Positions 5,122 through 43,457 of a stretch of 64,000 nucleotides of DNA are shown piece by piece. Source of the DNA: Allostella sp. ATCC 35155. Lineage in GTDB: Bacteria; Pseudomonadota; Alphaproteobacteria; ATCC43930; Allostellaceae. How positions within the stretch are numbered: the first letter of the stretch is position 1; each line of letters begins with the position of its first letter. The stretch covers positions 3,902,001-3,966,000 of the forward strand of contig AP019701.1 of the NCBI GenBank assembly GCA_006738865.1, given 5' to 3'. The position numbers were made by a program, and so were the translations under genes. Under the pieces are notes generated by a model, which had not been told where the DNA came from, made no database searches, and saw only the letters and a program-made list of their open reading frames with translations.

Positions 5122-5128
5122 GCCGACC

Positions 5129-5136
5129 TGTTAACA
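5129..5136 (-). promoter_or_regulatory. TGTTAACA element 7 nt before gene B
   Basis: An 8-bp palindrome with the same spacing to ATG as the elements before C and D. Upstream of all three a GTTCG is also conserved 10-12 bp before the element. It could be an extended -10 of a very short leader or a regulator site. Confidence 0.35.
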
Positions 5137-5240
5137 CAGGTGGAGGTGCGAACGAAAAGCGGTCCGAGAAACCTGCGCCGCGGCAGCCCGATCCGGCCGG
5201 TAGTCCGACTGATCCCGCCGGCCGTTGCCCGGCGTCGCGG

Positions 5241-6689: not shown

Positions 6690-6696
6690 GCCAGAC

Positions 6697-6704
6697 TGTT
6701 AGCA
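6697..6704 (-). promoter_or_regulatory. TGCTAACA element 7 nt before gene C
   Basis: Same element, same 7-nt spacing to the start codon and same GTTCG upstream as before genes B and D. Confidence 0.35.
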
Positions 6705-6789
6705 CGGACGCACCGCCGAACACGCTGCGGCGCCGCAGTTCGCCTCTTCCTCCAGCCGGCGAGCCGTCGGCCCCGATCGGGCATCGCTG

Positions 6790-23579: not shown

Positions 23580-25259
23580 CTATCGCCGGGCGAGCGCCCC
23601 CTCGCGCAGCGCCGTCAGCGTGGTGCGCGTGGTGATGACGTCCGGATCGGTCTTGACCTCGATCACCGCAAGCTTGCCGGAATCGCAGGCGCGCTGGAAG
23701 GCCGCGGCGAAGTCGGCGGTGCGCTCGACCGTCTCGCCGTGGGCGCCATAGGCGCGGGCGAGGGCCGCGAAGTCCGGATTGGTCAGTTCGGTGCCGTGGA
23801 CGCGGGTCGGGAAGTCCCGCTCCTGGTGCATGCGGATGGTGCCGTACATGTTGTTGTTGAGGATGACCAGGATCGGCGTCGCGCCGTACTGGATCGCCGT
23901 CGCGATCTCCTGCCCCGACATCATGAACGCGCCGTCCCCGGCGAAGCCGACGACGCGGCGATCGGGATGGCGCAGCGCGGCGGCGACCGCCGCCGGCACC
24001 GCATAGCCCATCGCGCCCGAGGTCGGGCCGAGGAACCGGCCGGGCCGGCCGAACTGCAGGAAGCGCTGCGGCCAGCCGCTGGCGTTGCCGGCGTCGGCGG
24101 TGACGATGGCGTCCCGCGGCAGCATCGCGCGGAGCGCGACCATGGCCTCGCCGACATCCATGGGGCCGGCATGCGGGCCCGGCACGAGCTGCGCCTCGTA
24201 GGCGGCACGGGCGGCCCGCCGCCAGTCCGCCCAGGCCGAGCCGTCGACCGGCGCCAGTCCGGCGAGCGCGGCGGCGAAGTTGCCGACGCCGGCCTGGATG
24301 CCCAGCGCCGGGCGGAAGACGCGGCCCAGTTCCTCCGCCGACGGATGGACATGGACGAGGGTCTGGCGCGGCTCGGGCGAGGAGAGCAGCTCGTAGCCCT
24401 GGGTCGTGATCTCGCCGAGACGCGCCCCGACGGCGATCAGCAGGTCACAATCCTTGGCGAGCTTGACCAGATCCTTGGCCGCACCCGTCCCCAGATCGCC
24501 GACATAGTTCGGGCTGGCATTGTCGACGACATCGAAGCGGCGGAAGGAGCAGGCGACCGGCAGGCCGTTCGCCTCGGCGAAGGCCTGGATCTGCGCCCCC
24601 GATTGGTCGGTCCAGTCGCCCCCGCCGACCAGCAGCAGCGGGCGCCGGGCGGCCGCCAGCATCTCGCGCAGGCGGCGCAGGTCGTCCGGCCCGGGATGGG
24701 CCTTGGCCGCAGCGGCGGGACCCGGCACCGGGACGTCGGCCAGGTCGCGCAGCATGTCCTCCGGCAGGGCGAGGACCGCCGGGCCGGGGCGCCCGGACTG
24801 GGCGATATGGAATGCGCGGCTGACATATTCCGGCACGCGGTCGGCCGTCTCGATCTGGCCGACCCACTTGGCCAGCGGGCCGTACATGCGGCGGAAATCG
24901 ACCTCCTGGAAGGCCTCCCGTTCCCACTGTTCGCGCGCCACCTGGCCGATCAGCACGACCATCGGCGTCGAATCCTGGTGGGCCGTGTGGACGCCGATCG
25001 AGGCGTTGCAGGCACCCGGCCCGCGGGTCACGATCAGCACGCCCGGCTTGCCGGTCAGCTTGCCGTAGGCCTCGGCCATGAAGGCCGCGCCGCCTTCCTG
25101 GCGGCAGGTGATGCAGCGGATCTCGTCGCGGGCGTCGTAGAGCGCATCCAGGACGGCAAGGAAGCTCTCGCCCGCCACCTGGAACACGGTGTCGACGCCG
25201 TTCGCCCGCAGCGTGTCGACCAGCAATTGCCCTCCGGTGCGGGCGTTGGCGCGCGTCAT
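23580..25259 (-). CDS. thiamine-diphosphate-dependent enzyme, acetolactate-synthase-like
   Basis: A 559-aa enzyme with the three ThDP-enzyme domains. The catalytic Glu is in CRQEGGAAFMAEAY, and the ThDP/Mg motif is GDGAFMMSGQEIATAIQYGATPILVILNNNMYG. It resembles catabolic AlvS/acetolactate-synthase-like or decarboxylase members; the substrate is unknown, and no regulatory subunit gene is nearby. GGGAGA lies before ATG 25259. The gene begins 35 nt after the stop of S, in the same direction, so it is probably part of the ATP-grasp operon and may make or use an alpha-keto acid for it. Confidence 0.82.
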   Translation of the reverse strand: MTRANARTGGQLLVDTLRANGVDTVFQVAGESFLAVLDALYDARDEIRCITCRQEGGAAFMAEAYGKLTGKPGVLIVTRGPGACNASIGVHTAHQDSTPMVVLIGQVAREQWEREAFQEVDFRRMYGPLAKWVGQIETADRVPEYVSRAFHIAQSGRPGPAVLALPEDMLRDLADVPVPGPAAAAKAHPGPDDLRRLREMLAAARRPLLLVGGGDWTDQSGAQIQAFAEANGLPVACSFRRFDVVDNASPNYVGDLGTGAAKDLVKLAKDCDLLIAVGARLGEITTQGYELLSSPEPRQTLVHVHPSAEELGRVFRPALGIQAGVGNFAAALAGLAPVDGSAWADWRRAARAAYEAQLVPGPHAGPMDVGEAMVALRAMLPRDAIVTADAGNASGWPQRFLQFGRPGRFLGPTSGAMGYAVPAAVAAALRHPDRRVVGFAGDGAFMMSGQEIATAIQYGATPILVILNNNMYGTIRMHQERDFPTRVHGTELTNPDFAALARAYGAHGETVERTADFAAAFQRACDSGKLAVIEVKTDPDVITTRTTLTALREGALARR

Positions 25260-25294: not shown

Positions 25295-27163
25295 TTAGCG
25301 GTCCGGCCGGTCGCAAGTCAACGCCGCGGCCAGCCCTGCGGCGCGCATCGCCATGGCGGCGGGATCGGCGGACCGCGGCCAGGCCGAGACCCGTGCGCCG
25401 ATCGCCCGCAGGATCGCCGCCGCGGCGATCGTGCCCCGGTCCCGGTCGTCGAGGAGGATCGCCGCGTCCGCCCGGCCATGGCCGAAGCCGGCCGCCCGCA
25501 GGGCCGAGGGCGGAACGGCGACGACGATCGCCTGGACCTGCGGATCGTCGACGAGGCGGTGGACGCGCTCCGGCCGGCCCGGGCCGGGATCGGCGAGCGG
25601 CAGCCCGGCCGCCGTCAGCCCGCGTCCGTTCGCCAGGCCGACCGCGAGGCCGCGCCGGGCGAAGGCGTCCGCCACCGCCACCGACGCGCCGTCGGCCACC
25701 GCCACCGACGCGCCGTCGGCCTGCGCCACCGACGCGCCGTCGGCCGCCTCGCCGCCGAGGACCGCCACGATCGGGATGCGCGCGGCCTGTGGCATCAGAT
25801 GCGCGGCGAACGCCGCCGACGGGTCGGACCCGCCGTCGCCGTGCAGCATGTGCGGCAGCAGCCCCGGCTGCCGGTTCACCTCGCAGATGCCGCCGCCCGC
25901 CACGCGCCAGGAGCGCGCGATGTCGGGACAGACGAAGTCGATGCCGGCGACGTCCAGGCCGAACGCCGCCGCCGCCTGACAGGCCGCCTTGCGGTTGTCG
26001 GGATGAACGATCCGGGTGACGTCGATCGGCGTGCTGCCGCCGCCATGGTTGCCGGTCGCACACAGGGCGACCGCCTGCCCCACGGGCGGCACCGCATCGA
26101 AGTCCAGTCCCTGGCGCGCCAGCAGGCGCGCGGCCTCCGCATCGCAGCGGATCGGCAGCAGACCGGCCCCCGGTCCGCCGCGCCGGGGATCGGCATTCGC
26201 GGCATCGACCAGCATGCGGACGCTGCGCCGGCCGTCGCCGACGACGGCGGCCGGCCGGCGCAGCGTCGCCGCCACCAAGCGCCCGGCGATCACCAGCAGC
26301 CGGTGGTCGGCGCCGGGCAGCATCGCCTCGACGACGACCCCGGATCCGTGCGCCGCCGCCGCCCGGAACGCGGCCCGAACCTCCCCGCGCGCAACCAGCC
26401 CCACGGCCACGGCAAGGCCGCCGCTGCCGCCCGCGGGCTTCAGCACGACGGGGTAGCCGATCGCCTCGGCCGCCATGACGGCGGTGTCGCAATCGCCGAC
26501 CAGGGCCTGGCGCGGGACCGGCAATCCGAGCCTGGAAAGCACGGCATGGGCCCGATGCTTGCGCTCCACCAGCATGGCGCCGACGCGGGCGGTTCGCGGC
26601 GTGACGCTGATGTGGTGGACCCGGCTGCGCCACCCCTCTCCCACCCGTCCGGAGCCCGGGATCGGCCCGGGGCGGCCGGCATGACCGTGCCGGTCGAGGG
26701 CCCGCGCCGCCCAGCGCTGGTCGAGTTCCGCCATGCGGTCGCCGGCGCGGGCACGCAGTGCGGCGACCGCTGCCGCGGCAGCGGTCGCATCGCCGCCATT
26801 GGCCGCGGCGAGGACGGCCGTCGCCGCCGCGACCAGAGCCGGCGGATCGACCGAGCGGTCCGCCTCGACCAGAGCCCACTCGCCGTCCTCCGCCGGAAGG
26901 ACCGCGGCCGCCCGGTCGTCGCCGCAATCCAGCAGGGCCGAGAGCACCCGCGCGAGGGCGGCGGCGGTGGCGCTGCCGGCGACCTGCGCCCGCAGAAACG
27001 CTGCCGCGAGATGCGGATCGATCGCCTGGAGGACCTCGCAGACCCGGTCGTCGCCGATCGGAAACCCGCGCATATCCACGCGCACCGCGATCGCCGCGGC
27101 CGTTCCCAGCCGGCCGCCGGGCGCAAGCCGCCGGACTTCGCGGACGTCGATCGCGTGCTCCAT
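25295..27163 (-). CDS. cyanophycin-synthetase-like ATP-grasp protein S, truncated Mur half
   Basis: A 622-aa protein. Residues 195-460 form an ATP-grasp domain closely like CphA: GYPVVLKPAGGSGG (K242), VEAMLPGADHRLLVIAG, HPDNRKAACQAAAAFGLDVAGIDFVCPD and GGGICEVN (E428, N430). Next comes the start of a Mur-ligase domain, RIPIVAVLGG, where CphA has its GTNGKTT P-loop. Here the P-loop is replaced by a tandem repeat (ADGASVAV units, residues 475-500), and the protein ends soon after the Walker B region. It should therefore form an acyl phosphate and one amide type, not both cyanophycin bonds. ATG 27163 is 14 nt after the T stop. Confidence 0.78.
   Translation of the reverse strand: MEHAIDVREVRRLAPGGRLGTAAAIAVRVDMRGFPIGDDRVCEVLQAIDPHLAAAFLRAQVAGSATAAALARVLSALLDCGDDRAAAVLPAEDGEWALVEADRSVDPPALVAAATAVLAAANGGDATAAAAAVAALRARAGDRMAELDQRWAARALDRHGHAGRPGPIPGSGRVGEGWRSRVHHISVTPRTARVGAMLVERKHRAHAVLSRLGLPVPRQALVGDCDTAVMAAEAIGYPVVLKPAGGSGGLAVAVGLVARGEVRAAFRAAAAHGSGVVVEAMLPGADHRLLVIAGRLVAATLRRPAAVVGDGRRSVRMLVDAANADPRRGGPGAGLLPIRCDAEAARLLARQGLDFDAVPPVGQAVALCATGNHGGGSTPIDVTRIVHPDNRKAACQAAAAFGLDVAGIDFVCPDIARSWRVAGGGICEVNRQPGLLPHMLHGDGGSDPSAAFAAHLMPQAARIPIVAVLGGEAADGASVAQADGASVAVADGASVAVADAFARRGLAVGLANGRGLTAAGLPLADPGPGRPERVHRLVDDPQVQAIVVAVPPSALRAAGFGHGRADAAILLDDRDRGTIAAAAILRAIGARVSAWPRSADPAAMAMRAAGLAAALTCDRPDR
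25671..25742 (-). repeat. three tandem 24-bp repeats inside gene S
   Basis: Units 25671-25694 and 25695-25718 are identical; 25719-25742 differs at its start. They encode an eight-residue repeat (ADGASVAV) exactly where the Mur-ligase P-loop of a cyanophycin synthetase would be. The array is in frame. Confidence 0.85.
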
Positions 27164-27177
27164 CGAGCGGACGAGGG

Positions 27178-28365
27178 TCAATCCGTGCGCTGCAGGCTGA
27201 GTGCGATCGCCGTCCCGGCCGCGGACGCGGCATCGGCTGCGCGCCAGGCGAGCCCGGCCGCCGCCGCCGCACCGTCCAGGTCGGCGACGGGCGCGCCGAC
27301 GATGCCCCGGCGCAGATTCGGCAGCAGCGGCAGGATGTCGGCCGCCCCCATCGGCGCCGCGAGGACCAGGACGTCGAGGGCGGGGTGAGCCAGCGCGCAT
27401 CCGCCGGGCGGGAGTTCGATCACCGCCGCCTCGACCGCGCCATGGTCGACGAGCAGGTCGAGCCCCGCCGCGCCGCGCCGGTCGTCGCTCATCAGCCGCA
27501 GTCCGTCGACGGACAGGCCCGACCGCGTGGCGAGCCCGACCGTCCGCCCGGCCGCGGCGAAGCCAGCGGCGATCTCCTCCGCCAGCGCCGCCGCACCGAT
27601 GCCGATCGTGGCGACGAGCGGAATCCGCCCGTCGCCCGCCGCAGGAAACAGATGGTCGAGATAGAGCGCGGCGAAGGAATCCGGGTCCGCGGCGATGCTC
27701 GCCGCCGGCATCAGGCCCGCGTCCAGCGCGGTCAGCATCGCGCCGGTTTCGGTGAAGGGGCGATCCGGCCGGGCGCCGGTCAGCTCGACCACCGCCAGCT
27801 CGATGTCGCAGACCGCGGCCGCGCGCTCGACCAGCAGGCGGTCGAGCGGGTGCGGCACCTCCCCTCCCGCCACGGCCGGCCGCCAGGCGCCGTCGACGAT
27901 CAGGTGGCGGCCGACCGGTCCGGGAACCGCGGCGGAGACGACGGCGCCGCGCGGCGTGTGGCGGCCGAACGCCGCGGCGACCGCGTCCGCGCCCGCCACG
28001 GGCGGGCTCGGCGCGACCATCGGCGGCGCCTGGATCGGTCGCAGGACGACGGGGCGGCCGATCTTGGCGGCTGCGGCCGTCGCCGCCTGGACCGACTGGG
28101 CCGGCGCGGTCTCGGGCACCGGAAGGCCGGCCTGGAGCCATGTCCGGTAGGTCAGCCAGCGGCTGCGGCAGAGCTGTCCCGCGAGGAACGGCGTCCGGTC
28201 GCTGGCGATGCCGTCGAGGCGGCAGAGCCGGGCGCCTTCGCCGAGGTGGACGAGACCGCCGCCGACATGTCTCGGCGTCAGGCCCCGCCGCGCGGCGAGC
28301 GCGAGCACGGCCCGAAGTGTCGGCAATTGCCAGGGGGGCGGATAGTCCACCGCAGCGTCGGTCAT
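27178..28365 (-). CDS. shrunken cyanophycin-synthetase-like protein T, probable pseudoenzyme
   Basis: A 395-aa protein sharing the order of S, U and V but lacking catalytic residues. LVHLGEGARLCRL followed by SDRT recalls the CphA linker LGxGxxxxR/DRT. The ATP-binding strand reads GRPVVLRPI, with Arg109 where Lys is expected, and the metal-binding segment TETGAMLTALDAGLMP has no Glu-x-Asn. RIPLVATIGI marks the Mur-like part, again without a P-loop. The frame is intact and the start overlaps the U stop (ATGA), so it is translated with its neighbours. It may be a structural or regulatory subunit of a mixed complex. Confidence 0.65.
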   Translation of the reverse strand: MTDAAVDYPPPWQLPTLRAVLALAARRGLTPRHVGGGLVHLGEGARLCRLDGIASDRTPFLAGQLCRSRWLTYRTWLQAGLPVPETAPAQSVQAATAAAAKIGRPVVLRPIQAPPMVAPSPPVAGADAVAAAFGRHTPRGAVVSAAVPGPVGRHLIVDGAWRPAVAGGEVPHPLDRLLVERAAAVCDIELAVVELTGARPDRPFTETGAMLTALDAGLMPAASIAADPDSFAALYLDHLFPAAGDGRIPLVATIGIGAAALAEEIAAGFAAAGRTVGLATRSGLSVDGLRLMSDDRRGAAGLDLLVDHGAVEAAVIELPPGGCALAHPALDVLVLAAPMGAADILPLLPNLRRGIVGAPVADLDGAAAAAGLAWRAADAASAAGTAIALSLQRTD

Positions 28366-30218
28366 GGTCGCCGGGCTCCTTCTTGCGCGCGCCTGGCCAG
28401 GTCGGCGAGACGGTCGGCCGCCATCTGCAGGAACCGCTCGCGTTCCGTCGCAGGCAGCGCGGTGACGGCAGCGCCGAGACGCGCCAGGACCGCCTCGGCC
28501 CGCCGCTGCGTCGCGGGCTCGCCTTCGACGAGGATCGCCATGTCGACGCGGCCGTGGCCGAGCCCGCGACGATCGAGGATCTCGGCTGGAACGGCCATCA
28601 CGACGGCGGCGACGGCCGGATCGTCGACCAGCCGCGCGATGCGGGTCGGATCCTGCGGGCCGGGATCACGCAGCGGCAGACCCGCCGCAATCAGCACGGT
28701 GCCCGTTGCCAGTCCGGTCGGGACGCCCAGGGCTGCCAGCCGCGCGGCCATGCCCTCGGCCACCCGGTCCGCTCCGGCCTCGCCCACGGCGAGGAGGACC
28801 GGCACCGGCGGCCGCCCGCCCAGCCAATGCCCGACGAACGCCTCGATCGCGGCGTCCGATCCGCCATCGGCCGCGAGATGGATGAGGCCGCCCGGCGAGC
28901 GGTTGACTTCGCAGATGCCGCCGCCCGTCTCGCGCCAGGACCGGCGAATGTCGGGCAGCAGGAAATCGATCCCCGCGACATCCAGCCCGAGGAGCCGGGC
29001 CGCCTGCAGCGCGGCCCGGCGATTGTCCGGATGGGCGACGGCCGCGACCTCGCGCGTGGTGCCGCCGCGATCCCAGTTGGCCACGCCCTGCAGCGGGACG
29101 CGCCGCCCGGCAGCCGGCACGCTGTCCCAGGACAGCCCGGCGCGCGCCAGCAGCGCTTCGGTTTCCGCATCGCAGCGCAAGGGCATCAAGGTGGCGTCGG
29201 CGCCGCGCCGACGCGGATCGGCGTCGACAGCCATGCGCAGTTCGGCCAGGCTGCGAACGCCGTCGCCCTGCACCGACGCGGCCTCCTTGCGGACGACCGA
29301 CACCACCGCCCCGGCGATGACGAGAAACCGATGGTCGTCCCCCGGCAGCAGGGTCTCCACCACAACCGGCCGCGAGACCGCGGCGGCACGGACGAATGCC
29401 GGACCGACCTCTTCCGGCATCGTCACTCCGACCGACACGCCGTTCCCGCCACTCGCGCCGATCGGCTTCACGACCACCGGGAAGCCGAGCCGACCGGCGG
29501 ACGCCACCGCCTCGGACCGCGTGGTGGCGAGTTCCTGGCGGGCCGCCGGCAGGCCGAACCGCCGCAGCAGGGTGCCGCAGCGGGCCTTGTCCTCACTCCA
29601 GGTCGCGGCCAGCCAGCCCGTGTCGCCGGTGACGAGCCCGCGCGCATCGCGGCGTCCGATTCCGGCGCCCACGCGCAGCCCCTTGCCCATCGGCCCGGCG
29701 CGCCAGCCGACGTCACGGGCCGTCAACGCCCGCCGCAGGACGCTCCAGGTGGAACGCGCCAGGGCCTGCGCGTGGCCGGCCAGCCAGGCGCGGGTGGCCG
29801 GCGACACGGGCGGCGGCACGGCCGACGACAGGTGGACCAGCAATTCGCGGGGCACGTCCCTTGGCGGGCGCGCCGCCTCCCCTTCCTCGACCAGGACCAG
29901 CCACTCACCGGGTGTCGTCCCGGTCGCCTCGATCGCCATGGCGAGCGGGCGCCCGCAGGCGTTGGCCGCCGCCCACAGGGCCGCGAAGGCACCCGCTGCG
30001 GGATCGGCCGCTGGCGGCAGCGCGACCGCCGCGAACGCCTCCGCGAACTCGGGCGGCAGCGAGGACAGCAACCGCGCGACTGCCGCCCGGTCGACGCGCG
30101 TGCCGGGCGGCACGCCCAGCACGAAGGCGTCGCAGGGGCGCCGGCCGAGCGCATTGCCGGCCGCCAGGCGGCCGTGCCGGACGATCCTGGCCGGCAGCTG
30201 CGGAAGCGGCTCGTTCAC
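28362..30218 (-). CDS. cyanophycin-synthetase-like ATP-grasp protein U, truncated Mur half
   Basis: A 618-aa protein. The ATP-grasp core (about 205-450) contains GFPVVVKPIGASGGNG (K251), VETLLPGDDHRFLVIAG, HPDNRRAALQAARLLGLDVAGIDFLLPD and GGGICEVN (E437, N439). The following segment VPVLLAVGEAGADRV corresponds to the start of a Mur-ligase domain but has no GxxGKT. It still contains the stretch ARLVDDPAVAAVVMAVPAEI, which matches the CphA region after the P-loop. The start is GTG 30218, overlapping the stop of V by four bases (GTGA). N-terminal 200 residues are Ala-rich and only weakly like the CphA N domain. Confidence 0.77.
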   Translation of the reverse strand: MNEPLPQLPARIVRHGRLAAGNALGRRPCDAFVLGVPPGTRVDRAAVARLLSSLPPEFAEAFAAVALPPAADPAAGAFAALWAAANACGRPLAMAIEATGTTPGEWLVLVEEGEAARPPRDVPRELLVHLSSAVPPPVSPATRAWLAGHAQALARSTWSVLRRALTARDVGWRAGPMGKGLRVGAGIGRRDARGLVTGDTGWLAATWSEDKARCGTLLRRFGLPAARQELATTRSEAVASAGRLGFPVVVKPIGASGGNGVSVGVTMPEEVGPAFVRAAAVSRPVVVETLLPGDDHRFLVIAGAVVSVVRKEAASVQGDGVRSLAELRMAVDADPRRRGADATLMPLRCDAETEALLARAGLSWDSVPAAGRRVPLQGVANWDRGGTTREVAAVAHPDNRRAALQAARLLGLDVAGIDFLLPDIRRSWRETGGGICEVNRSPGGLIHLAADGGSDAAIEAFVGHWLGGRPPVPVLLAVGEAGADRVAEGMAARLAALGVPTGLATGTVLIAAGLPLRDPGPQDPTRIARLVDDPAVAAVVMAVPAEILDRRGLGHGRVDMAILVEGEPATQRRAEAVLARLGAAVTALPATERERFLQMAADRLADLARRAQEGARRP

Positions 30219-32128
30219 GTCGGTGCGCGGTGCAGCGCGACGATCCGGGCGAGCAGACCGTCGTCGATCGCCGCAGGAAGGGCGGCGGGCGGGACGAGGA
30301 CGGCGCCGATGCCGGCCAGGATGTCGCCCGCCGCGCACGGGCCGTCGTCGGGGAGGATGGCGAGGTCGGCGCGTCCATGCCCGAAGCCTTCCGCGACGAC
30401 GGCCGCAGGGTCGACCACCGCCACGATCGCATCGACCGCGGGATCATCGATGAGACGCGCCACCCGCAGGGGCGAGCCCGGGCCGGGGTCGGCCAACGGC
30501 AGGCCGGCGGCCTCGAAGCGCCGCGTCGTCGCGAGGCCGATCGCAAGGCCGCGGCCGGCAAGGCGGTCCGCCATGGCGAGCGCCGGCGCGTCGCGCTCCC
30601 GTCCCCCGAGGAAGACGACGATCGGGACAGTCATCGGGCGCCCGTCCGAGACATGCGCAGCAAAGCGCGTGAGCGCAGCCGCGACGCGGCCCTCGGCGAT
30701 GCTGTGGGTGCGGAACCCCGGCGCCCGGTTGACCTCGCAGATGCCACCGCCGGTGCCGCGCCACGACAGCGCGATGTCCGGAACGATCATGTCGATGCCG
30801 GCGACGTCGAGCCCGATGACAGCCGCGGCCTGGCATGCCGCCTCGCGGTTGTCGGGATGAATGTCGCCGACCGTTCGGGCGATCGCCCCTCTGGACATGT
30901 GACCGTGCCAGTGCAGGGTCGCGCTCTCGCCGGCCGCGAGGATGGTGTCGCCGTCCCGGCCGCAGCGGCGCAGGTACGCCAGCATCTCGTCCGTGAGCCG
31001 AAGCGGCCGCACCGCGGCGCGCGGGCCCTGGCGGGGCGGAGCCGCATCGGCCGCCGCGACCAGTTCCCGGATCGTCCGCCGGCCGTCGCCGACCACGGTC
31101 CCCGGCGCGTTCCGGATCGCGCCCGCAACCTCGCCACGAATGACGAGCAGACGGTAGGCGTGGCCGACCAGCTGGGTTTCCACGACGATCGCTGCCGATC
31201 GACGCCGCGCGTCGGCGAACGCCGCCGCCACCGCCCCGGGCGTGGAGAGCCCGATCGCGACGCCGCGGCCGTTGCTGCAATCGACCGGCTTGACGACGAC
31301 GGGATAACCCAGGCGTTCCGCCGCCGCGCACGCGGCAGCCGCGTCGGCGACCCGGACTTGTCGCGCCACCGGCAGCCCGGCCGCGGCGAGGCGTGCGCTG
31401 GCCTCGTCCTTGCGCTCCGCCAGCGTGCCGCCGGGCAGCGTCGTGTGCGGCGACACCCCGCCGCGCAGCCGCCGCCGCCGCCGCCCTTCCCCGACCATTC
31501 CGATCGGATGGTCCAGGCAGCGACGCCAGCCGATGCCGTCGGCGGCCAGGGCTTCGATCAGGAGGTTGCGCTGGTTGCGATCGTAGCGATCGAGGCGCGA
31601 GCCGAGCATCGCCTCGATCCGCGCGCGCAGCGCCGGCAGGACGGGCTGGCGGCGGAGCGCATGGCGCAGCAGGTCCGCGGCCACGTCGAACAGCTCCCGC
31701 GGGGCGCCGTCCACGCCCTCGGCCAGGCAGATGCTCCAGGCATCGCGTCCGGGTGCGGCCGCTGCCCGCGTCACGGCAACCGGCAGATCCCGGCCGTTGG
31801 CCAGAAACGCCACCAGGACCGCCGCCAGCGCTGCCGCAAGCGGGTCCGCGTCGGGCGGCAGGCGCGCCAGGCGGTACTCGTCGCCGAGATCGGGCGCGAC
31901 ATCCGCCATCAACCGTCCGACGGCGCCGGGATCGCAGACGGTACCGGCAGGCGCATCGAACACTACGGCGAGCGCGGGGCGGTCGCCCAGGACATTGCCG
32001 GCCGCCAGCCGGACGGCCGACAGGATCCGCAGCCCCGGACCGGACCGGGAGACCGGCGCCAGCGCCGGATTCCCGCGCAACTCGGCCGCGGGCGGCGCAG
32101 CCTCCGATCCTGCTTCGATGTTGCCCAT
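30215..32128 (-). CDS. cyanophycin-synthetase-like ATP-grasp protein V, truncated Mur half
   Basis: A 637-aa protein and first gene of the V-U-T-S operon. The ATP-grasp part (about 235-490) shows GYPVVVKPVDCSNGRG (K280), VETQLVGHAYRLLVIRGEV, DIHPDNREAACQAAAVIGLDVAGIDMIVPD and GGGICEVNRAPGFRTH (E465, N467), the last being closest to genuine CphA. The Mur remnant starts VPIVVFLGGRERDAP, without a P-loop, and the protein stops about 130 residues later. Full cyanophycin synthetase is about 870-900 aa, so the C-terminal catalytic half is missing. ATG 32128 was chosen; a GTG at 32161 is possible. Confidence 0.77.
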   Translation of the reverse strand: MGNIEAGSEAAPPAAELRGNPALAPVSRSGPGLRILSAVRLAAGNVLGDRPALAVVFDAPAGTVCDPGAVGRLMADVAPDLGDEYRLARLPPDADPLAAALAAVLVAFLANGRDLPVAVTRAAAAPGRDAWSICLAEGVDGAPRELFDVAADLLRHALRRQPVLPALRARIEAMLGSRLDRYDRNQRNLLIEALAADGIGWRRCLDHPIGMVGEGRRRRRLRGGVSPHTTLPGGTLAERKDEASARLAAAGLPVARQVRVADAAAACAAAERLGYPVVVKPVDCSNGRGVAIGLSTPGAVAAAFADARRRSAAIVVETQLVGHAYRLLVIRGEVAGAIRNAPGTVVGDGRRTIRELVAAADAAPPRQGPRAAVRPLRLTDEMLAYLRRCGRDGDTILAAGESATLHWHGHMSRGAIARTVGDIHPDNREAACQAAAVIGLDVAGIDMIVPDIALSWRGTGGGICEVNRAPGFRTHSIAEGRVAAALTRFAAHVSDGRPMTVPIVVFLGGRERDAPALAMADRLAGRGLAIGLATTRRFEAAGLPLADPGPGSPLRVARLIDDPAVDAIVAVVDPAAVVAEGFGHGRADLAILPDDGPCAAGDILAGIGAVLVPPAALPAAIDDGLLARIVALHRAPT

Positions 32129-32354
32129 TCGCGCCGATCGCCCCCCTGGAGCGACCGGCACAATCGCCGGGCCGACGCACGGCTGTCAACGCGAGTCCAC
32201 GCGGCTCGGCGGCGCGCAAATCCGCTTGCCCGGCGCCCGCGGACAGCGGTCTACTGCGGCGGTTCGCGACCGGCGGGCGAGCAACTGCCGCCGACTCCGG
32301 GGCCGCCCCCGGGGCGGACCGGCGGACCGTCCGGTCGCGCCGATTGGAGGCATC
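32129..32354. promoter_or_regulatory. divergent intergenic region, V operon and binding-protein array
   Basis: 226 bp between two outward-facing units must hold both promoters. I see GC-rich inverted segments but no confident -35/-10 pair. Confidence 0.4.
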
Positions 32355-33959
32355 ATGACGATGGTATCGGAACGGCCGGCCCGGTGGCTCGCCGCCCTTC
32401 TTCTCGCGGGCGCTGCCGCCCTTCCCGCCACTCCGGCCCTGGCACAGCAGAAGGTGCTGCGGGTCACCATGCATGCCGACGTGCGCACGCTGGATCCCAT
32501 CTGGACGACCCAGGTGATCGCCGGCATCCACGGGCTGATGATCTACGACACCCTGTTCTCGACCGACTTCAACCTGCGCACCCAGCCGCAGATGGTCGAG
32601 AAGTGGACGGTGAGCGACGACAAGAAGACCTACACCTTCACGCTGCGCGAGGGCCTGCGCTTCAGCGACGGCACCCCGGTCGGACCGAAGGACGCCATCG
32701 CCTCGGTCAGGCGGTGGGCGGCGCGCGACGGCGGCGGCCGGCAGCTGATGGCCTATACCGACGCCATCAACCCGATCGACGCCCGCAGCTTCGAGTGGAA
32801 GCTGAAGGAGCCCTACGGCCTCATCATCGACCTGCTCGGCAAGCCGGACACCAGCATTCCCTTCATCATGCGGGAGAAGGAGGCGCTGACCGATCCGATG
32901 AAGCAGATCGACGAGATCGTCGGCTCCGGTCCCTTCCTCTTCAAGCGCGACGAGTGGGTGCCGGGCTCGAAGACGGTCTACGTCAAGAATCCGAACTACG
33001 TCCCGCGCAAGGAACCGGCCTCGGGCCATGCCGGCGGCAAGGTGGTGAAGGTCGACCGGGTCGAGATGATCTGGATGCCGGACCCGCAGACGGCGCAGTC
33101 CGCGCTGGTCGCCGGCGAGATCGACTATCTGGAGAACCCGCAGCCCGACTTCCTGCCGATCCTGGAATCGACGCCCGGCGTGAAGCTGGTGACGCACCCG
33201 GCGCAGGGCACGCTCGGCATCATGCAGCTGAACCACCTGCACCCGCCCTTCAACAACGTGAAGGCGCGGCAGGCGATGTTCCACATCATCAACAACCAGG
33301 ACTATCTGGACACCATCGCCGCCGACAAGAAGCTGCAGAAGCCGTGCTTCTCGTATTTCGGCTGCGGCACGCCGATGGAAACGGACGCCGGTTCGGAGCC
33401 CTACAAGGCCCCGAAGGACTACCGGAAGGCCGAGCAGCTGTTCAAGGAAGCGGGCTACAAGGGTGAGCCGATCACCATCCTGCACGCCACCGACCACGCC
33501 TACATCAACCCGGCCAACCTGGTGATGATCCAGCAGCTGCGGAAGGCGGGCTTCCTCAAGCTCGACGTCCAGGCCATGGACTGGGGCACCGTCGTCTCCC
33601 GCCGGACCAAGAAGGAGCCGCCGGCGCAGGGCGGCTGGAACATCTTCATCACCGGCTCGTCCGCGCTCGGCGCCTCGACGCCGCTGACCAATACGCCGCT
33701 GCCGATGGGCTGCGAGCGCGCCTGGTTCGGCTGGCCCTGTGACGCGGAGTTCGAGAAGCTGCGCAACAGCTGGGCGCTCGGCGCCGACGTCGCGGCGCGC
33801 AAGCAGATCGCCGTCGAGGTCAGCAAGGCCGCCTACCAGAAGGTGCCCTACATTTCCTTCGGCCAGTGGACGAGCCCCGTCGCCTATCGCGAAGACCGCA
33901 TCAGCGGCGTCCTCTCGGTGCCGTCGGTGCCGCCGATGTGGAACATCGAGAAGAAGTAG
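32355..33959 (+). CDS. ABC transporter substrate-binding protein, family 5 (paralogue 1)
   Basis: A 534-aa periplasmic receptor of the dipeptide/oligopeptide type, with signal peptide (about 1-31, ending ALAQ) and the family 5 core starting VLRVTMHADVRTLDPIWTT. SBP5 hallmarks include YTFTLREGLRFSDGTPV and GSGPFLFKRDEWVPGS. A Cys pair in KPCFSYFGCG may form a disulfide. GGAGG precedes ATG 32355. It ends with WNIEKK, as do the other three copies. No permease is adjacent; the nearest is dppB 11 kb downstream, so it may share that transporter. The ligand is unknown. Confidence 0.9.
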   Translation: MTMVSERPARWLAALLLAGAAALPATPALAQQKVLRVTMHADVRTLDPIWTTQVIAGIHGLMIYDTLFSTDFNLRTQPQMVEKWTVSDDKKTYTFTLREGLRFSDGTPVGPKDAIASVRRWAARDGGGRQLMAYTDAINPIDARSFEWKLKEPYGLIIDLLGKPDTSIPFIMREKEALTDPMKQIDEIVGSGPFLFKRDEWVPGSKTVYVKNPNYVPRKEPASGHAGGKVVKVDRVEMIWMPDPQTAQSALVAGEIDYLENPQPDFLPILESTPGVKLVTHPAQGTLGIMQLNHLHPPFNNVKARQAMFHIINNQDYLDTIAADKKLQKPCFSYFGCGTPMETDAGSEPYKAPKDYRKAEQLFKEAGYKGEPITILHATDHAYINPANLVMIQQLRKAGFLKLDVQAMDWGTVVSRRTKKEPPAQGGWNIFITGSSALGASTPLTNTPLPMGCERAWFGWPCDAEFEKLRNSWALGADVAARKQIAVEVSKAAYQKVPYISFGQWTSPVAYREDRISGVLSVPSVPPMWNIEKK

Positions 33960-33981
33960 CTCCGGCATAGCCGCCCCGAGG

Positions 33982-34015
33982 GCGCCGGCCGGGCGAACGC
34001 CCGGCCGGCGCTTTT
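33982..34015 (+). terminator. intrinsic terminator after binding protein 1
   Basis: Perfect 14-bp arms starting GCGCCGGCCGGGCG around AA, followed by TTTT. The same arm sequence recurs after paralogue 2. Confidence 0.85.
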
Positions 34016-34106
34016 AACTTGCGGTCGACGCCCCGCGTCCCTTTCATTGCCGGCCGCGCTCGCCCCCCGATCGCGGATTCCTGATCGTTTGAACAAAGGA
34101 GATGAC

Positions 34107-35720
34107 ATGACCGACCGCTCGAACCGCATCCGGCATCCGGCCGCGGCGGCGATCCTCGCTGCCGCGGCATCGGCGGTGGCATTGACGGCCATGCCGATGA
34201 TCGCGACTGCCCAGGAGAAGGTGCTGCGGGCGACCATGCATGCCGACGTGCGCGCGCTGGACCCGGTGTGGACGACGCAGACCATCGCGACGATCCACGG
34301 CAACATGATCTACGACCAACTCTTCAACCTCGACACCAATCTGATGCCGCAGCCGCAGATGGTGGAGAAGTACACCGTCAGCGAGGATCGCAAGACCTAC
34401 ACCTTCACGCTGCGCGACGGCCTGAAGTTCCATGACGGCACCCCCGTCACGACCAAGGACGTGCTGCCCTCCATCAGCCGCTGGGCCGCCCGCCGCAACG
34501 CCGGCAAGATCCTGATGGGCTTCACCGAATCCATCACGGCCAAGGACGACAAGACCTTCGAGTGGAAGCTGAAGGAGCCGTTCGGCCTCGTCGTCGATAC
34601 GCTGGCCCTGACCGGCTCGGTCTTCGTGATGCGCGAGAAGGAGGCCAAGACGGACCCCTTCAAGCAGATCGAGGAAGCGATCGGCTCGGGTCCGTTCAAG
34701 TTCAAGCGCGACGAGTGGGTGCCCGGCTCGAAGACGGTCTACACGAAGTTCACGGACTATGTGCCGCGCAAGGAGCCGCCCTCGGGCCATGCCGGCGGCA
34801 AGGTGGCCAAGGTCGACCGCGTCGAGTTCGTGTGGATGCCCGACCCGCAGACGGCGCAGTCCGCGCTGGTCGCCGGCGAGATCGACTATCTGGAGAACCC
34901 GCAGCCCGACTTCCTGCCGATCCTGGAATCGACGCCCGGCGTGAAGCTGGCGACGCATCCGGCCCAGGGCACGATGGGCATCATCCAGCTCAACCACCTG
35001 CACCCGCCCTTCAACAACGTGAAGGCGCGGCAGGCGATGTTCCACATCATCAAGATGCAGGATTTCCTCGACACCATCGTCGCCGACAAGAAGCTGCAGA
35101 AGCCCTGCTTCTCGTACTTCGGCTGCGGCGTGCCCATGGAGACGGACGCCGGCTCGGAGGTCTACAAGGCGGCGCCCGACTACAAGAAGGCCGAGCAGCT
35201 GTTCAAGGAGGCGGGCTACAAGGGTGAGCCCATCACCATCCTCCACGCCACCGACCACCAGTACATCAATCCGGCCAACCAGGTGATGATCTCCCAGCTG
35301 CGCAAGGCGGGCTTCCTCAAGCTCGACGTGCAGGCGATGGACTGGGGCTCGGTCGTCGCCCGGCGGACCAAGAAGGAGCCGCCGGCGCAGGGCGGCTGGA
35401 ACATCTTCATCACCGGCACCACGGTGCTGAGTTCCTCCTCGCCGATCACCCATACGTCCCTGGCCATGGCCTGCGAGAAGGCCTGGTTCGGCTGGCCGTG
35501 CGATCAGAAGCTGGAGGATCTTCGCCGGGACTGGAGCCTTGCTCCGGACGTGGCGGCGCGCAAGCCGATCGCCGTCGAGATCTCGAAGCGGGCGTACGAG
35601 CAGGTTCCCTACATCTCGTTCGCGCAGTGGGTGAACCCCGTGGCATACCGCGAGGATCGCATCTCCGGCGTCGTCGCGGTGCCGTCGGTGCCGCCGATGT
35701 GGAACATCGAAAAGAAGTAG
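34107..35720 (+). CDS. ABC transporter substrate-binding protein, family 5 (paralogue 2)
   Basis: A 537-aa exported receptor with signal peptide (about 1-35) and the mature start EKVLRATMHADVRALDPVW. It is very similar to paralogue 3 along its whole length, including signal peptide (MTDRSNR) and ribosome-site region (GGAGATGACATG). Parts are identical to paralogue 1 at the nucleotide level: 109 bases starting at 34842 equal those at 33081. The ligand pocket region (ITGTTVLSSSSPITHTSLAMAC) differs between copies, which suggests related but different ligands. It has its own terminator and so is probably a separate transcript. Confidence 0.9.
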   Translation: MTDRSNRIRHPAAAAILAAAASAVALTAMPMIATAQEKVLRATMHADVRALDPVWTTQTIATIHGNMIYDQLFNLDTNLMPQPQMVEKYTVSEDRKTYTFTLRDGLKFHDGTPVTTKDVLPSISRWAARRNAGKILMGFTESITAKDDKTFEWKLKEPFGLVVDTLALTGSVFVMREKEAKTDPFKQIEEAIGSGPFKFKRDEWVPGSKTVYTKFTDYVPRKEPPSGHAGGKVAKVDRVEFVWMPDPQTAQSALVAGEIDYLENPQPDFLPILESTPGVKLATHPAQGTMGIIQLNHLHPPFNNVKARQAMFHIIKMQDFLDTIVADKKLQKPCFSYFGCGVPMETDAGSEVYKAAPDYKKAEQLFKEAGYKGEPITILHATDHQYINPANQVMISQLRKAGFLKLDVQAMDWGSVVARRTKKEPPAQGGWNIFITGTTVLSSSSPITHTSLAMACEKAWFGWPCDQKLEDLRRDWSLAPDVAARKPIAVEISKRAYEQVPYISFAQWVNPVAYREDRISGVVAVPSVPPMWNIEKK

Positions 35721-35741
35721 ATTCGGCATCTTGACGCCGGC

Positions 35742-35777
35742 AGCGCCGGCCGGGCAGACGCCCGGCCGGCGCTTTTT
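35742..35777 (+). terminator. intrinsic terminator after binding protein 2
   Basis: Perfect 14-bp arms (AGCGCCGGCCGGGC and complement), AGAC loop, then TTTT(T). Near copy of the previous terminator. Confidence 0.85.
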
Positions 35778-35876
35778 GCTTGCGGTCGACACCCGCCATT
35801 CTCTCTACTGTTCGGCGCATCCCAGCCCTGCCCGACAACGGACGGGGGCCAAATCATTTGAACAGATGGAGATGAC

Positions 35877-37490
35877 ATGACTGACCGCTCGAACCGCTTC
35901 CGGCATCCGGCCGCGGCGGCGATCCTCGCCACCGCCGCATCCGCGGTGGCGCTGACGGCCATGCCGATGGTCGCGGCCGCCCAGGAGAAGGTGCTGCGCG
36001 CGACGATGCACGCCGACGTGCGGGCGCTGGACCCCGTCTGGACGACGCAGACCATCGCGTCGATCCACGGCAACATGATTTACGACCAGCTCTTCAACCT
36101 CGACACCGATCTGATGCCGCAGCCGCAGATGGTGGAGAAGTTCACGGTCAGCGAGGACCGCAAGACCTACACCTTCACTTTGCGCGACGGCCTGAAGTTC
36201 CATGACGGCACCCCCGTCACGACCAAGGACGTGCTGCCGTCGATCCATCGCTGGGCCGCCCGCCGCAGTTCCGGCAAGGTTCTGATGGGCTTCACCGAAT
36301 CCATCACGGCCAAGGACGACAAGACCTTCGAGTGGAAGCTGAACGCGCCGTTCGGGTTCCTCATCGACACGCTGGCCCTGACCGGCTCCGTCTATGTGAT
36401 GCGCGAGAAGGAGGCCAAAACGGACCCCTTCAAGCAGATCGAGGAATCGGTCGGCTCCGGCGCATTCATGTTCAAGCGCGACGAGTGGGTTCCCGGCTCC
36501 AAGACCGTCTACACGAAGTTCCAGGACTATGTGCCGCGCAAGGAGCCGCCCTCGGGCCATGCCGGCGGCAAGGTGGCCAAGGTCGACCGCGTCGAGTTCG
36601 TCTGGCTGCCCGACCCGCAGACGGCGCAGGCCGCGCTCGTCGCCGGCGAGATCGACTATCTGGAGAACCCGCAGCCCGACTTCCTGCCGATCCTGGAATC
36701 GACGCCCGGCGTACATCTGGTCCGGCACAAGGCCCAGGGCACGATGGGCATCATCCAGCTCAACCACCTGCACCCGCCCTTCAACAACGTGAAGGCGCGG
36801 CAGGCGATGTACCACATCATCAAGGCGCAGGATTTCCTCGACACCATCGTCGCCGACAAGAAGCTGCAGAACCCCTGCTTCTCCTACTTCGGCTGCGGCG
36901 TGCCCATGGAGACGGACGCGGGTTCCGACGCCTACAAGGCTCCGCCCGACTACAAGAAGGCCGAGCAGCTGTTCAAGGAGGCGGGCTACAAGGGTGAGCC
37001 GATCACCATCCTGCACGCCACCGACCACGCCTACATCAACCCGGCCAACCAGGTGATGATCCAGCAGCTGCGCAAGTCGGGCTTCCTCAAGCTCGACGTG
37101 CAGGCGATGGACTGGGGCTCGGTCGTCGCCCGGCGCGCGAAGAAGGAGCCGCCGGCGCAGGGTGGCTGGAACATCTTCGTGACCGGAACCACGGTGCTCG
37201 GCTCGTCCTCGCCCATCACCCACGTCTCGCTCGGAATGGGCTGCGAGAAGGCGTGGTTCGGCTGGCCGTGCGACGCCAAGATGGAGGAGTTGCGGCAGCA
37301 GTGGGGCCTCGCGCCCGATCTCGCCAGCCGCAAGACGATCGCGATCGACATCTCCAAGCGCGCCTACGACCAGGTGCCCTATGTCTCGTTCGCGCAGTGG
37401 GGACAGCCCGTCGCCTATCGCGAGGACCAGATCTCGGGCGTGATCCCGGTGGCGTCGGTGCCGCCGATGTGGAACATCGAAAAGAAGTAG
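35877..37490 (+). CDS. ABC transporter substrate-binding protein, family 5 (paralogue 3)
   Basis: A 537-aa receptor, closest sister of paralogue 2: same length, same signal peptide pattern and same upstream AACA-GATGGAGATGAC leader. Differences concentrate in surface and pocket segments (LNAPFGFLIDTLALTGSVYVM; VHLVRHKAQGTMGI). Such tandem copies usually diversify ligand range for one permease. It is followed by a strong terminator and then by the RND efflux pair. Confidence 0.9.
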   Translation: MTDRSNRFRHPAAAAILATAASAVALTAMPMVAAAQEKVLRATMHADVRALDPVWTTQTIASIHGNMIYDQLFNLDTDLMPQPQMVEKFTVSEDRKTYTFTLRDGLKFHDGTPVTTKDVLPSIHRWAARRSSGKVLMGFTESITAKDDKTFEWKLNAPFGFLIDTLALTGSVYVMREKEAKTDPFKQIEESVGSGAFMFKRDEWVPGSKTVYTKFQDYVPRKEPPSGHAGGKVAKVDRVEFVWLPDPQTAQAALVAGEIDYLENPQPDFLPILESTPGVHLVRHKAQGTMGIIQLNHLHPPFNNVKARQAMYHIIKAQDFLDTIVADKKLQNPCFSYFGCGVPMETDAGSDAYKAPPDYKKAEQLFKEAGYKGEPITILHATDHAYINPANQVMIQQLRKSGFLKLDVQAMDWGSVVARRAKKEPPAQGGWNIFVTGTTVLGSSSPITHVSLGMGCEKAWFGWPCDAKMEELRQQWGLAPDLASRKTIAIDISKRAYDQVPYVSFAQWGQPVAYREDQISGVIPVASVPPMWNIEKK

Positions 37491-41873: not shown

Positions 41874-43457
41874 ATGAGAGCGACGCTCGCCGCAGCGTTT
41901 CTGGCCACCACTGCGCTCGCCGGCATGCTCGCCCCGGCCCAGGCGCAGAAGGTGATCCGCGCCACCATGCATGCCGACGTCCGGACGCTCGATCCGATCT
42001 GGACCACCCAGACGATCGCGTCCATTCACGGCAACATGATCTTCGACCGGCTGTTCGCGAGCGACGCGGACCTGCAGCCGCAGCCGCAGATGGTCGACAA
42101 GTGGACCGTCAGCGAGGACAAGAAGGTCTATACCTTCACCCTGCGCGACGGGCTAAAGTTCCACGACGGCACGCCGGTGACGACGAAGGACGTCATCGCC
42201 TCGATGAAGCGCTGGGGCGTGCGCGACGGCGCCGGCAAGATCCTCTTCGGCTACACCGAGGATCTGGTCGCCAAGGACGACAAGACCTTCGAGTGGCGCC
42301 TGAAGGAGCCCTACGGCCTCGTCCTCGACACCCTGGCCAAGACCGGCACCAGCCTGCCCGCGATCATGCGCGAGAAGGAGGCGATGACCGATCCCTTCCA
42401 GCAGGTGAAGGAGATGGTCGGCTCCGGCCCGTTCATGTTCAAGGCGGACGAGTGGGTGCCCGGCTCCAAGACCGTCTACAGCAAGTTCCAGGACTATGTG
42501 CCGCGCAAGGAGGCGCCCTCGGGCCATGCCGGCGGCAAGGTGGTGAAGGTCGACCGCGTCGAGTTCGTCTGGATGCCGGATCCGCAGACCCAGCAGTCCG
42601 CGCTCGTCGCCGGCGAGATCGACTTCCTCGAGGCGCCGCAGGTCGACTTCCTGCCGATCCTCGCGGCGACGCCGGACATCAAGCTGTTCAACCATCCGGC
42701 GTCCGGCTCGATGGGCATCATCCAGCTGAACCACCTGCACCCGCCCTTCAACAACGTGAAGGCGCGGCAGGCGATGTACCACATCATCAACATGCCGGAC
42801 TTCCTCAACACCTTCATCCCGGACAAGAAGCTGCAGCGGCTCTGCTACTCCTACTTCGGCTGCGGCACGCCGACCGAGACGGATGCGGGCTCGGAACCCT
42901 ACAAGGCACCGAAGGACTACAAGAAGGCCGAGCAACTGTTCAAGGAGGCGGGCTACAAGGGCGAGCCCATCACCATCCTCCACGCCACCGACCACTGGTA
43001 CATCAACCCGGCCAACCTGGTGATGATCCAGCAGCTGCGGAAGGCGGGCTTCCTCAAGCTCGACGTCCAGGCCATGGACTGGGGCTCGGTCGTCGCGCGG
43101 CGGGCGAAGAAGGAGCCGCCGGCGCAGGGCGGCTGGAACATCTTCATCACCGGCACCTCGATCGTGACTTCGGCCAACCCGATGACCCACACCTCGATCG
43201 GCATGGGCTGCGACAAGGCGTGGTTCGGCTGGCCCTGCGACGCCAAGTTCGAGCAGCTGCGGCGTGACTGGGCGGCGGCACCCGACCTGGCCGGCCGCAA
43301 GTCGATCGCGGTCGAGCTGTCGAAGCGCGCCTACGACCAGGTGCCCTATATCTCGTTCGCGCAGTGGAGCAATCCCTCGGCCTATCGCACCGACAAGCTG
43401 TCGGGCGTGGTGCCGGCGCCGGGCTATCCGGTGATGTGGAACATCGAGAAGAAGTAG
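41874..43457 (+). CDS. ABC transporter substrate-binding protein, family 5 (paralogue 4)
   Basis: A 527-aa receptor with signal peptide (about 1-24, ending AQAQ), same fold and WNIEKK end as paralogues 1-3 but the most separate in sequence. It still shares tracts of perfect nucleotide identity with them, for example around CACCTGCACCCGCCC near 42730. GGAG 6 nt upstream supports ATG 41874; ATG 41862 is less likely. It lies 69 bp after the RND pump and is nearest to the dpp permease genes. Confidence 0.9.
   Translation: MRATLAAAFLATTALAGMLAPAQAQKVIRATMHADVRTLDPIWTTQTIASIHGNMIFDRLFASDADLQPQPQMVDKWTVSEDKKVYTFTLRDGLKFHDGTPVTTKDVIASMKRWGVRDGAGKILFGYTEDLVAKDDKTFEWRLKEPYGLVLDTLAKTGTSLPAIMREKEAMTDPFQQVKEMVGSGPFMFKADEWVPGSKTVYSKFQDYVPRKEAPSGHAGGKVVKVDRVEFVWMPDPQTQQSALVAGEIDFLEAPQVDFLPILAATPDIKLFNHPASGSMGIIQLNHLHPPFNNVKARQAMYHIINMPDFLNTFIPDKKLQRLCYSYFGCGTPTETDAGSEPYKAPKDYKKAEQLFKEAGYKGEPITILHATDHWYINPANLVMIQQLRKAGFLKLDVQAMDWGSVVARRAKKEPPAQGGWNIFITGTSIVTSANPMTHTSIGMGCDKAWFGWPCDAKFEQLRRDWAAAPDLAGRKSIAVELSKRAYDQVPYISFAQWSNPSAYRTDKLSGVVPAPGYPVMWNIEKK

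Follow-up and report, generated by a model that had tools for sequence, protein, structure and literature searches.

Cyanophycin synthetases are known for making a single polymer. What, then, might four of their relatives do side by side in one operon, when none of them carries a working Mur-ligase half? The question is raised by positions 25295-32128 of a stretch of 64,000 nucleotides (the window; contig AP019701.1, positions 3,902,001 to 3,966,000) from strain ATCC 35155 of the genus Stella, which is now renamed Allostella according to the accessible part of PMC12488387. An original prediction, made from the DNA letters alone, had taken the four genes, here V, U, T and S, for an operon of cyanophycin-synthetase-like (CphA-like) proteins making a different amide-linked product. 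We propose, with a probability of roughly 0.45, that V, U and S are ligases with one active site each and an altered specificity, which possibly assemble with T, a pseudoenzyme, and that their product is probably not ordinary cyanophycin. The domain layout is already known; what is new is the setting, namely the expansion and divergence of such genes in Stella together with a conserved probable pseudoenzyme. We found no description of this expansion in the titles and abstract openings of the open-access literature, which is a weak negative.

Domain layout of the four proteins

The four genes lie on the minus strand and are as tightly linked as predicted: V (30215-32128, ATG start, 637 amino acids (aa)) overlaps U (28362-30218, GTG start, 618 aa) by 4 nt (GTGA), U overlaps T (27178-28365, ATG start, 395 aa) by 4 nt (ATGA), and 14 nt separate T from S (25295-27163, ATG start, 622 aa). 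The full set of ATP-grasp motifs read by the original prediction (PVVxKP, in S as PVVLKP, then HPDNR, LDVAGID and GGGICEVN) is indeed present in V, U and S. Against PRK14016, the NCBIfam model of cyanophycin synthetase, V, U and S score 253, 251 and 280 bits (E-values 5e-75, 2e-74 and 6e-83), far under the 877-bit cut-off, and the matches stop at model position 571-573 of 871. The reading of a Mur segment that has no P-loop and ends early also held: a pattern search found no GxxGKT-type P-loop in V, U, S or T, no Mur-ligase Pfam family matched any of the four at E <= 1, and in V the remnant starts at residue 501 and takes up the last 137 or so residues. As a control, both Mur domains and a GTNGKT motif were detected in the full-length CphA-like copy of the same genome (L014; C1:3045192-3047603, 895 aa, P-loop intact), which lies about 0.88 Mb from the operon. 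T has no N domain and keeps the Mur remnant. V, U and S lack the HxxEH primer-making site of the N domain, which 75 of 81 P-loop-bearing CphA1 sequences have (a comparison set not drawn at random but chosen for its resemblance to the V clade or the CphA model); the Cx19HxxEH motif is itself optional, being found in 83% of CphA1s in the part of PMC9262961 available to us.

The AlphaFold model of V (mean predicted local distance difference test (pLDDT) 91.3, predicted TM-score (pTM) 0.88) superposes end to end on the CphA2 of Gloeothece citriformis (7ta5): residues 30-628 of the model align with 6-595 of the chain (553 aligned, Z 25.8, root-mean-square deviation (rmsd) 4.3). With the CphA2 of Stanieria sp. 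(8fxh/8fxi) Z is 19.6-21.1, and with CphA1 chains, to which the model aligns across the N domain, the G (ATP-grasp) domain and part of the M (Mur) domain, from residue 1 up to about 709, it is 24.2-31.3. CphA2 enzymes, of about 630 aa, share the arrangement of N domain, G domain and a shortened M domain; in the available text of PMC9427784 they link beta-Asp-Arg dipeptides and have neither the M-domain P-loop nor the Mlid, and PMC10206079, as far as accessible, has them make cyanophycin from these dipeptides with a single ATP-grasp active site. The premise that a cyanophycin synthetase needs both halves thus stands for CphA1 and fails for CphA2. We rejected the notion of a novel architecture, because the layout of CphA2 is the same. 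V, U and S differ from CphA1 by the missing Mur P-loop, C-terminal Mur domain, N-domain HxxEH and His267. P-loop-less CphA-like proteins of 406-878 aa, as judged by pattern, also occur in other Alphaproteobacteria and in a metagenome-assembled genome (MAG) of the Chlorobiaceae (L138-L152 and L070). Those placed in our tree, which did not include L151 and L152, fall outside the main Stella clade of 33 sequences described below. The match of L138, another of these P-loop-less proteins, covers almost all of the CphA model.

Catalytic residues, substrate pockets and the T protein

The residues scored were those tested in PMC9427784, as far as its accessible text goes, and the calls come from MAFFT alignments at roughly 25-45% identity, being least certain in loops 264-269 and 394-398 and at the acidic positions of T. 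V, U and S have all five residues of the ATP and Mg site (K220, K261, R309, D431 and E450), as does every one of the 41 Stella copies that contain a G domain. The substrate side is another matter: His267, which belongs to P-loop-G, is retained in 1 of these 41 copies, N394 in 16, S396 in 14, G456 in 14 and R458 in 6, against 80 of the 81 P-loop CphA1s for His267 and all 81 for the other four. E215 is found in a single Stella copy versus 57 of the 81. V carries H267N, R323N (the residue just before it being an Arg) and N394H and retains S396 and R458; U has H267G, R323K, S396D and R458L and retains N394; S has H267G, S396G and R458L and also retains N394.

CphA2 allows these losses to be divided. 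Since 7ta5 has a Lys at 267, the loss of His267 is common to CphA2 and the Stella copies, and in U and S, as in 7ta5 (Phe at 458), both His267 and Arg458 are replaced. However, 7ta5, the one CphA2 in the residue comparison, keeps N394 and S396 of the G-omega loop, whereas V is changed at 394 and U and S at 396. On the alignment, then, the loop holding the incoming unit is different from that of CphA2, unlike the loss of His267. The P-loop-less proteins outside Stella (L070 and L138-L152) keep the ATP residues and have no His267 in any of 16 cases. Within Stella the pockets also differ from one paralogue to the next: among 12 groups comprising 34 of the 41 copies (the other seven form the serA-linked branch), agreement at pocket positions is 0.60 within groups versus 0.23 between them, compared with 0.60 versus 0.37 for the whole G domain and 0.97 versus 0.91 at the catalytic positions.

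The original prediction spoke of four cyanophycin-synthetase-like proteins. This stands for V, U and S, which are plausible ligases; T, though related to them, has lost its ATP-grasp site as well. By alignment, four of the five ATP and Mg residues of T are replaced (K220R, K261R, D431 by Glu and E450 by Ala). The operon would hence encode a probable pseudoenzyme next to three plausible ligases, since the ATP-grasp site of T is replaced. The T relative of S. humosa (406 aa) has the same four replacements; that of a fourth, draft Stella genome (G002), which is 533 aa long and has not lost its N-terminal part, shares the two arginines, retains D431 and has an Asp at E450. Arg thus occupies both phosphate-lysine positions in the T-type proteins of all three genomes holding one, and T is probably a conserved pseudoenzyme, as judged from its sequence and those of its relatives. 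The model of T (pLDDT 89.7, pTM 0.85) superposes on the G and M regions of CphA1 (Z 21.2, 375 residues aligned, rmsd 3.6).

Constraint on the remnant can be compared with that on the ATP-grasp part. In the T family, identity is 0.56 in the remnant core versus 0.40 in the ATP-grasp part, a difference reached by 3 of 260 circular windows along the alignment. Among V, U and S the values are 0.55 and 0.46 (37 of 396 windows as high), and in larger V-clade sets they are 0.57 and 0.49 for six sequences (31 of 397) and 0.55 and 0.49 for eight (21 of 397). The Stella groups FE, M14 and TPR go the opposite way, the remnant being less conserved than the G domain. We read the dead Mur remnant as a retained interface, with a constraint that appears strong for T alone and weak for V, U and S.

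Genomic setting and history in Stella

The genome of ATCC 35155 contains 12 truncated copies, that of S. humosa 11 and that of S. vacuolata three; G002 also has 12, two of which are cut off where a contig ends. ATCC 35155 and G002 each have one full-length copy with an intact Mur P-loop, the S. humosa copy is broken by a stop in its Mur part, and no full-length CphA match was found in the S. vacuolata genome. Recurrence of the four-gene set is partial: the exact V-U-T-S arrangement was seen only in ATCC 35155, but S. humosa has V1-V2-T at the same site, and in G002 relatives of T and S adjoin the peptide-binding-protein genes that flank the site, the gene for the thiamine pyrophosphate (TPP)-dependent enzyme of its other flank being on another contig. 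In S. vacuolata (L157) a stretch of 217 nt, in which no gene was called, separates the divergent TPP and first binding-protein genes.

The TPP gene thus occurs even at a site that has no operon. Identity between species is 84-89% for the two flanking genes, compared with 50-51% for V and T and their counterparts in S. humosa. Nei-Gojobori estimates against S. humosa give a dN of 0.44-0.46 for V and T versus 0.08-0.10 for the two neighbours, and a dN/dS of 0.44-0.49 versus 0.16-0.22; the ratios are rough, because synonymous sites are partly saturated. A neighbouring histidine kinase is equally fast (dN/dS 0.52), the other Stella copies lie at 0.40-0.56, and a DehI-like gene adjoining one of them at 0.48. 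The operon genes evolve fast, then, while the five ATP and Mg residues aligned in V, U and S are unchanged.

In a tree built on a long alignment, 33 of 38 truncated Stella copies form one clade (support 91/90), which was not recovered with the short G-domain segment. G2_48 and G2_52 fall outside it, and three copies fused to a tetratricopeptide-repeat (TPR) part branch with L140, L141 and L143 from other Alphaproteobacteria and with L070, so that the TPR-fused version is probably older and of wider spread. The TPR-like extension, long and N-terminal, was recognised by eye, and in Stella these proteins (L011, L042, L053) are encoded beside a methyltransferase gene. Elsewhere in three Stella genomes, one to three truncated CphA-like genes stand between serA/serC-like and pheST-like genes (L009, L044, L035, L054); in G002 (L054) the serA side alone is on the contig, and the serA-linked copies form a divergent branch with a stem length of 1.16. 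In the free tree, built on the G-domain segment with one CphA2 sequence, 7ta5 groups with the CphA1s and apart from the Stella copies, but a joint clade of the 33 copies with 7ta5 is not rejected (approximately unbiased test, p-AU 0.153, same segment). An origin independent of CphA2 is therefore favoured by the free tree, and the clade test does not settle it.

Outside Stella such an expansion was not encountered among the genomes scored. Twenty-one other alphaproteobacterial genomes scored in full, drawn from the 42 of 385 with a match, hold one to five CphA-model matches each (E <= 1e-30), so that the contrast with Stella is a contrast against carriers. A scan with a V-clade profile gave 79 P-loop CphA1s and one truncated protein, L070, among the best 80 of 353 loci, a result that does not bear on absence. 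No full-length T-like match outside ATCC 35155 appeared in 385 sampled alphaproteobacterial genomes, ATCC 35155 among them (655 bits at home, 90.5 for the best elsewhere), and over 398 Pseudomonadota genomes the best V-profile match outside ATCC 35155 reached 365 bits versus 799-863 at home; three candidates were scored per genome in these two samples (two in the CphA-model survey), which is not proof of absence. S. humosa and G002, which hold T-type genes yet are not among the matching genomes, were presumably not drawn in the 385-genome sample. Several other Pseudomonadota genomes contain two adjacent CphA-like matches. On a plasmid of Microvirga ossetica (L159, 3368-6382), a gene annotated as CapA includes a CphA-like ATP-grasp stretch, possibly a fusion of two polymer-making families. 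In three further genomes (G193:C1, G260:C40, G118:C85) a full-length CphA is followed by a separate frame of 588-642 aa that matches the Mur half alone, from position 478.

In the window, the gene for the TPP-dependent enzyme (23580-25259, minus strand; NCBIfam PRK08199, 835 bits versus a cut-off of 539) begins 35 nt past S and may be co-transcribed with the operon. On the other side, 226 bp (32129-32354) separate V from the divergent first gene for an oligopeptide-type binding protein (SBP_bac_5; 32355-33959, plus strand), the first of four in the window; this is the presumed promoter region, in which a scan found no sigma-70-type consensus. The four similar SBP_bac_5 genes, at 32355-37490 and 41874-43457 on the plus strand, surround an efflux pair looking like HlyD/AcrB, and a Dpp-like permease also adjoins the operon. 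These names, like those of serA, serC, pheST and an iron-type ABC transporter, were assigned by eye on the opening residues of the translated genes, and genes beyond the window were called with a simple program based on codon usage. Transport was considered as a clue to the substrate and set aside, because the genome of ATCC 35155 has 50 SBP_bac_5 matches and relatives of these genes flank the S. vacuolata site, which has no operon. The G+C content is about 75-77% in the operon (25295-32128) and 65-69% just past its binding-protein side, the side of the TPP and kinase genes being also at about 75%. A second tandem expansion lies at 2193-8244 on the minus strand: four adjoining genes for proteins of 482-493 aa, AMP-binding and acyl-CoA-ligase-like by eye, at least three of which have near-identical starts.

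What the operon may do

We envisage V, U and S, with their CphA2-like layout, as each activating a carboxylate as an acyl phosphate and joining it to an amine, in pockets that match neither one another nor the Asp-adding site of CphA1. Because these pockets have diverged in both respects, units other than Asp and Arg are the most likely substrates, and the operon may join them into an amide-linked oligomer or a modified peptide. T would be a conserved inactive partner replacing an active subunit in a hetero-oligomer, with the Mur remnant, common to all four proteins, as the assembly surface; a mixed complex of the operon proteins is plausible. To this extent the predicted amide-linked product of a different kind fits the substrate residues, while the layout meant to imply it is that of a known enzyme. 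A bolder version, in which each Stella genome would encode about a dozen single-site amide ligases, each with its own pocket, and the operon would be a hetero-oligomeric assembly line glued by Mur remnants and making an undescribed mixed-unit, non-ribosomal peptide-like polymer, seems to us unlikely.

Several observations weigh against this proposal. V retains both Ser396 and Arg458, and one truncated Stella copy, G2_52, is alone in having His267. Among V and the S. humosa proteins V1 and V2, the excess of identity in the remnant is weak (0.66 versus 0.60, 79 of 397 windows as high). The V model has a higher Z to some CphA1 chains (31.3) than to either CphA2, so that the likeness of V to CphA2 is one of layout. 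The dN/dS of the operon genes, 0.44-0.64 and below 1 for all pairs, could be explained by relaxed constraint. Finally, a recognised cyanophycinase is found in only 658 of 1614 CphA1-encoding genomes in the part of PMC10206079 we can cite, which makes the lack of a TIGR02069 match compatible with cyanophycin use.

This last point bears on the alternative that survives best, itself distinctly unlikely, in which the genes encode functional CphA2s and a store resembling cyanophycin is built up again from beta-Asp-Arg or comparable isoaspartyl dipeptides, either imported or recycled. The shared layout, the replacement of residues 267 and 458 in U and S as in 7ta5 and the joint clade that the tree permits would all suit it, but the His394 of V, the Asp396 of U and the Gly396 of S stand where 7ta5 retains N394 and S396, and 7ta5 sits with the CphA1s in the free tree. 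CphA2 has one known job, beta-Asp-Arg polymerisation, for which 11-12 genes per genome seem excessive, and the Stella operon has three differing pockets and a probable pseudoenzyme. The four adjoining oligopeptide-type binding-protein genes could import a dipeptide, yet with 50 such genes in the genome adjacency is weak evidence. As for recycling, an AstE/AspA-type hydrolase gene converges on another CphA-like copy of ATCC 35155 (L016), a gene looking the same by eye holds the same convergent position in G002 (L050), and none does in S. humosa (L037); it is a lead to isoaspartyl dipeptides, because proteins of this kind are named as cyanophycin dipeptide hydrolases in the accessible text of PMC10206079. 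No cyanophycinase match (TIGR02069) that could provide the dipeptide was found in any of the four Stella genomes, the same model matching 5 of 14 control genomes and exceeding its cut-off in two, and this argues weakly against ordinary cyanophycin turnover.

Less probable again are independent tailoring ligases that make no polymer at all. In the manner of glutathione synthetase or N-acetylglutaminylglutamine synthetase, each would carry out one joining step on a small molecule, in pathways that have nothing to do with each other. Matches to these families exist but are weaker than those to CphA, and the ATP-grasp part of V superposes on the hybrid glutathione synthetase GshF (3ln6 and 3ln7, Z 24.7 and 20.5), but this alignment ends with the ATP-grasp part, at model residue 498, whereas V retains an N-terminal domain that aligns with the N domain of CphA. 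It is true that other Stella paralogues stand beside unrelated genes (the serA/serC-like and, by eye, iron-type ABC genes, DehI, the TPR fusion with its methyltransferase) and that these neighbours are similar across several Stella genomes; three paralogues and T placed head to tail, with their 4-nt overlaps and 14-nt gap, speak against such independence.

More doubtful still, the genes might be fast-turnover relics, duplicates of the full-length CphA that drift after losing their Mur half, with T the most decayed. The original prediction had itself named a full-length CphA elsewhere and relaxed selection as grounds for such a view: a full-length CphA-like gene with a P-loop does exist and the genes do evolve fast, the S. 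vacuolata site is empty and the ATP site of T is gone; yet the ATP and Mg residues of V, U and S are fixed. Drift would hardly leave these five residues in all 41 copies, or reading frames intact in V, U, S, T and their relatives (L039, L045), or dN/dS under 1 in every pair tested. Nor does it sit well with S. vacuolata, which retains three truncated copies and has no full-length CphA match, or with a constrained remnant and the same two Lys-to-Arg changes in the T-types of three genomes.

The least probable alternative, that V, U, S and T are accessory subunits which join the full-length CphA-like enzyme and change how one polymer is primed, how long its chains grow or what it is composed of, could draw on the intact full-length copies of ATCC 35155 and G002 and on the adjoining CphA-like pairs of other Pseudomonadota, but the full-length gene is distant from the operon and S. 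humosa retains V1, V2 and T despite its stop-interrupted copy.

Single-site ligases of changed specificity, possibly with T as an inactive partner, thus remain the explanation we prefer. The operon is not needed for the star shape of these bacteria, since star-shaped S. vacuolata has none at the site and only its three truncated copies elsewhere. With about a dozen copies per genome, their ATP sites fixed and their substrate sites varied, Stella offers a natural panel for learning how the CphA scaffold sets specificity, and these copies are possibly a source of new non-ribosomal polyamides. The operon also provides, in an unusually shaped bacterium, a testable case of a probable ligase pseudoenzyme retained next to its apparently active relatives.

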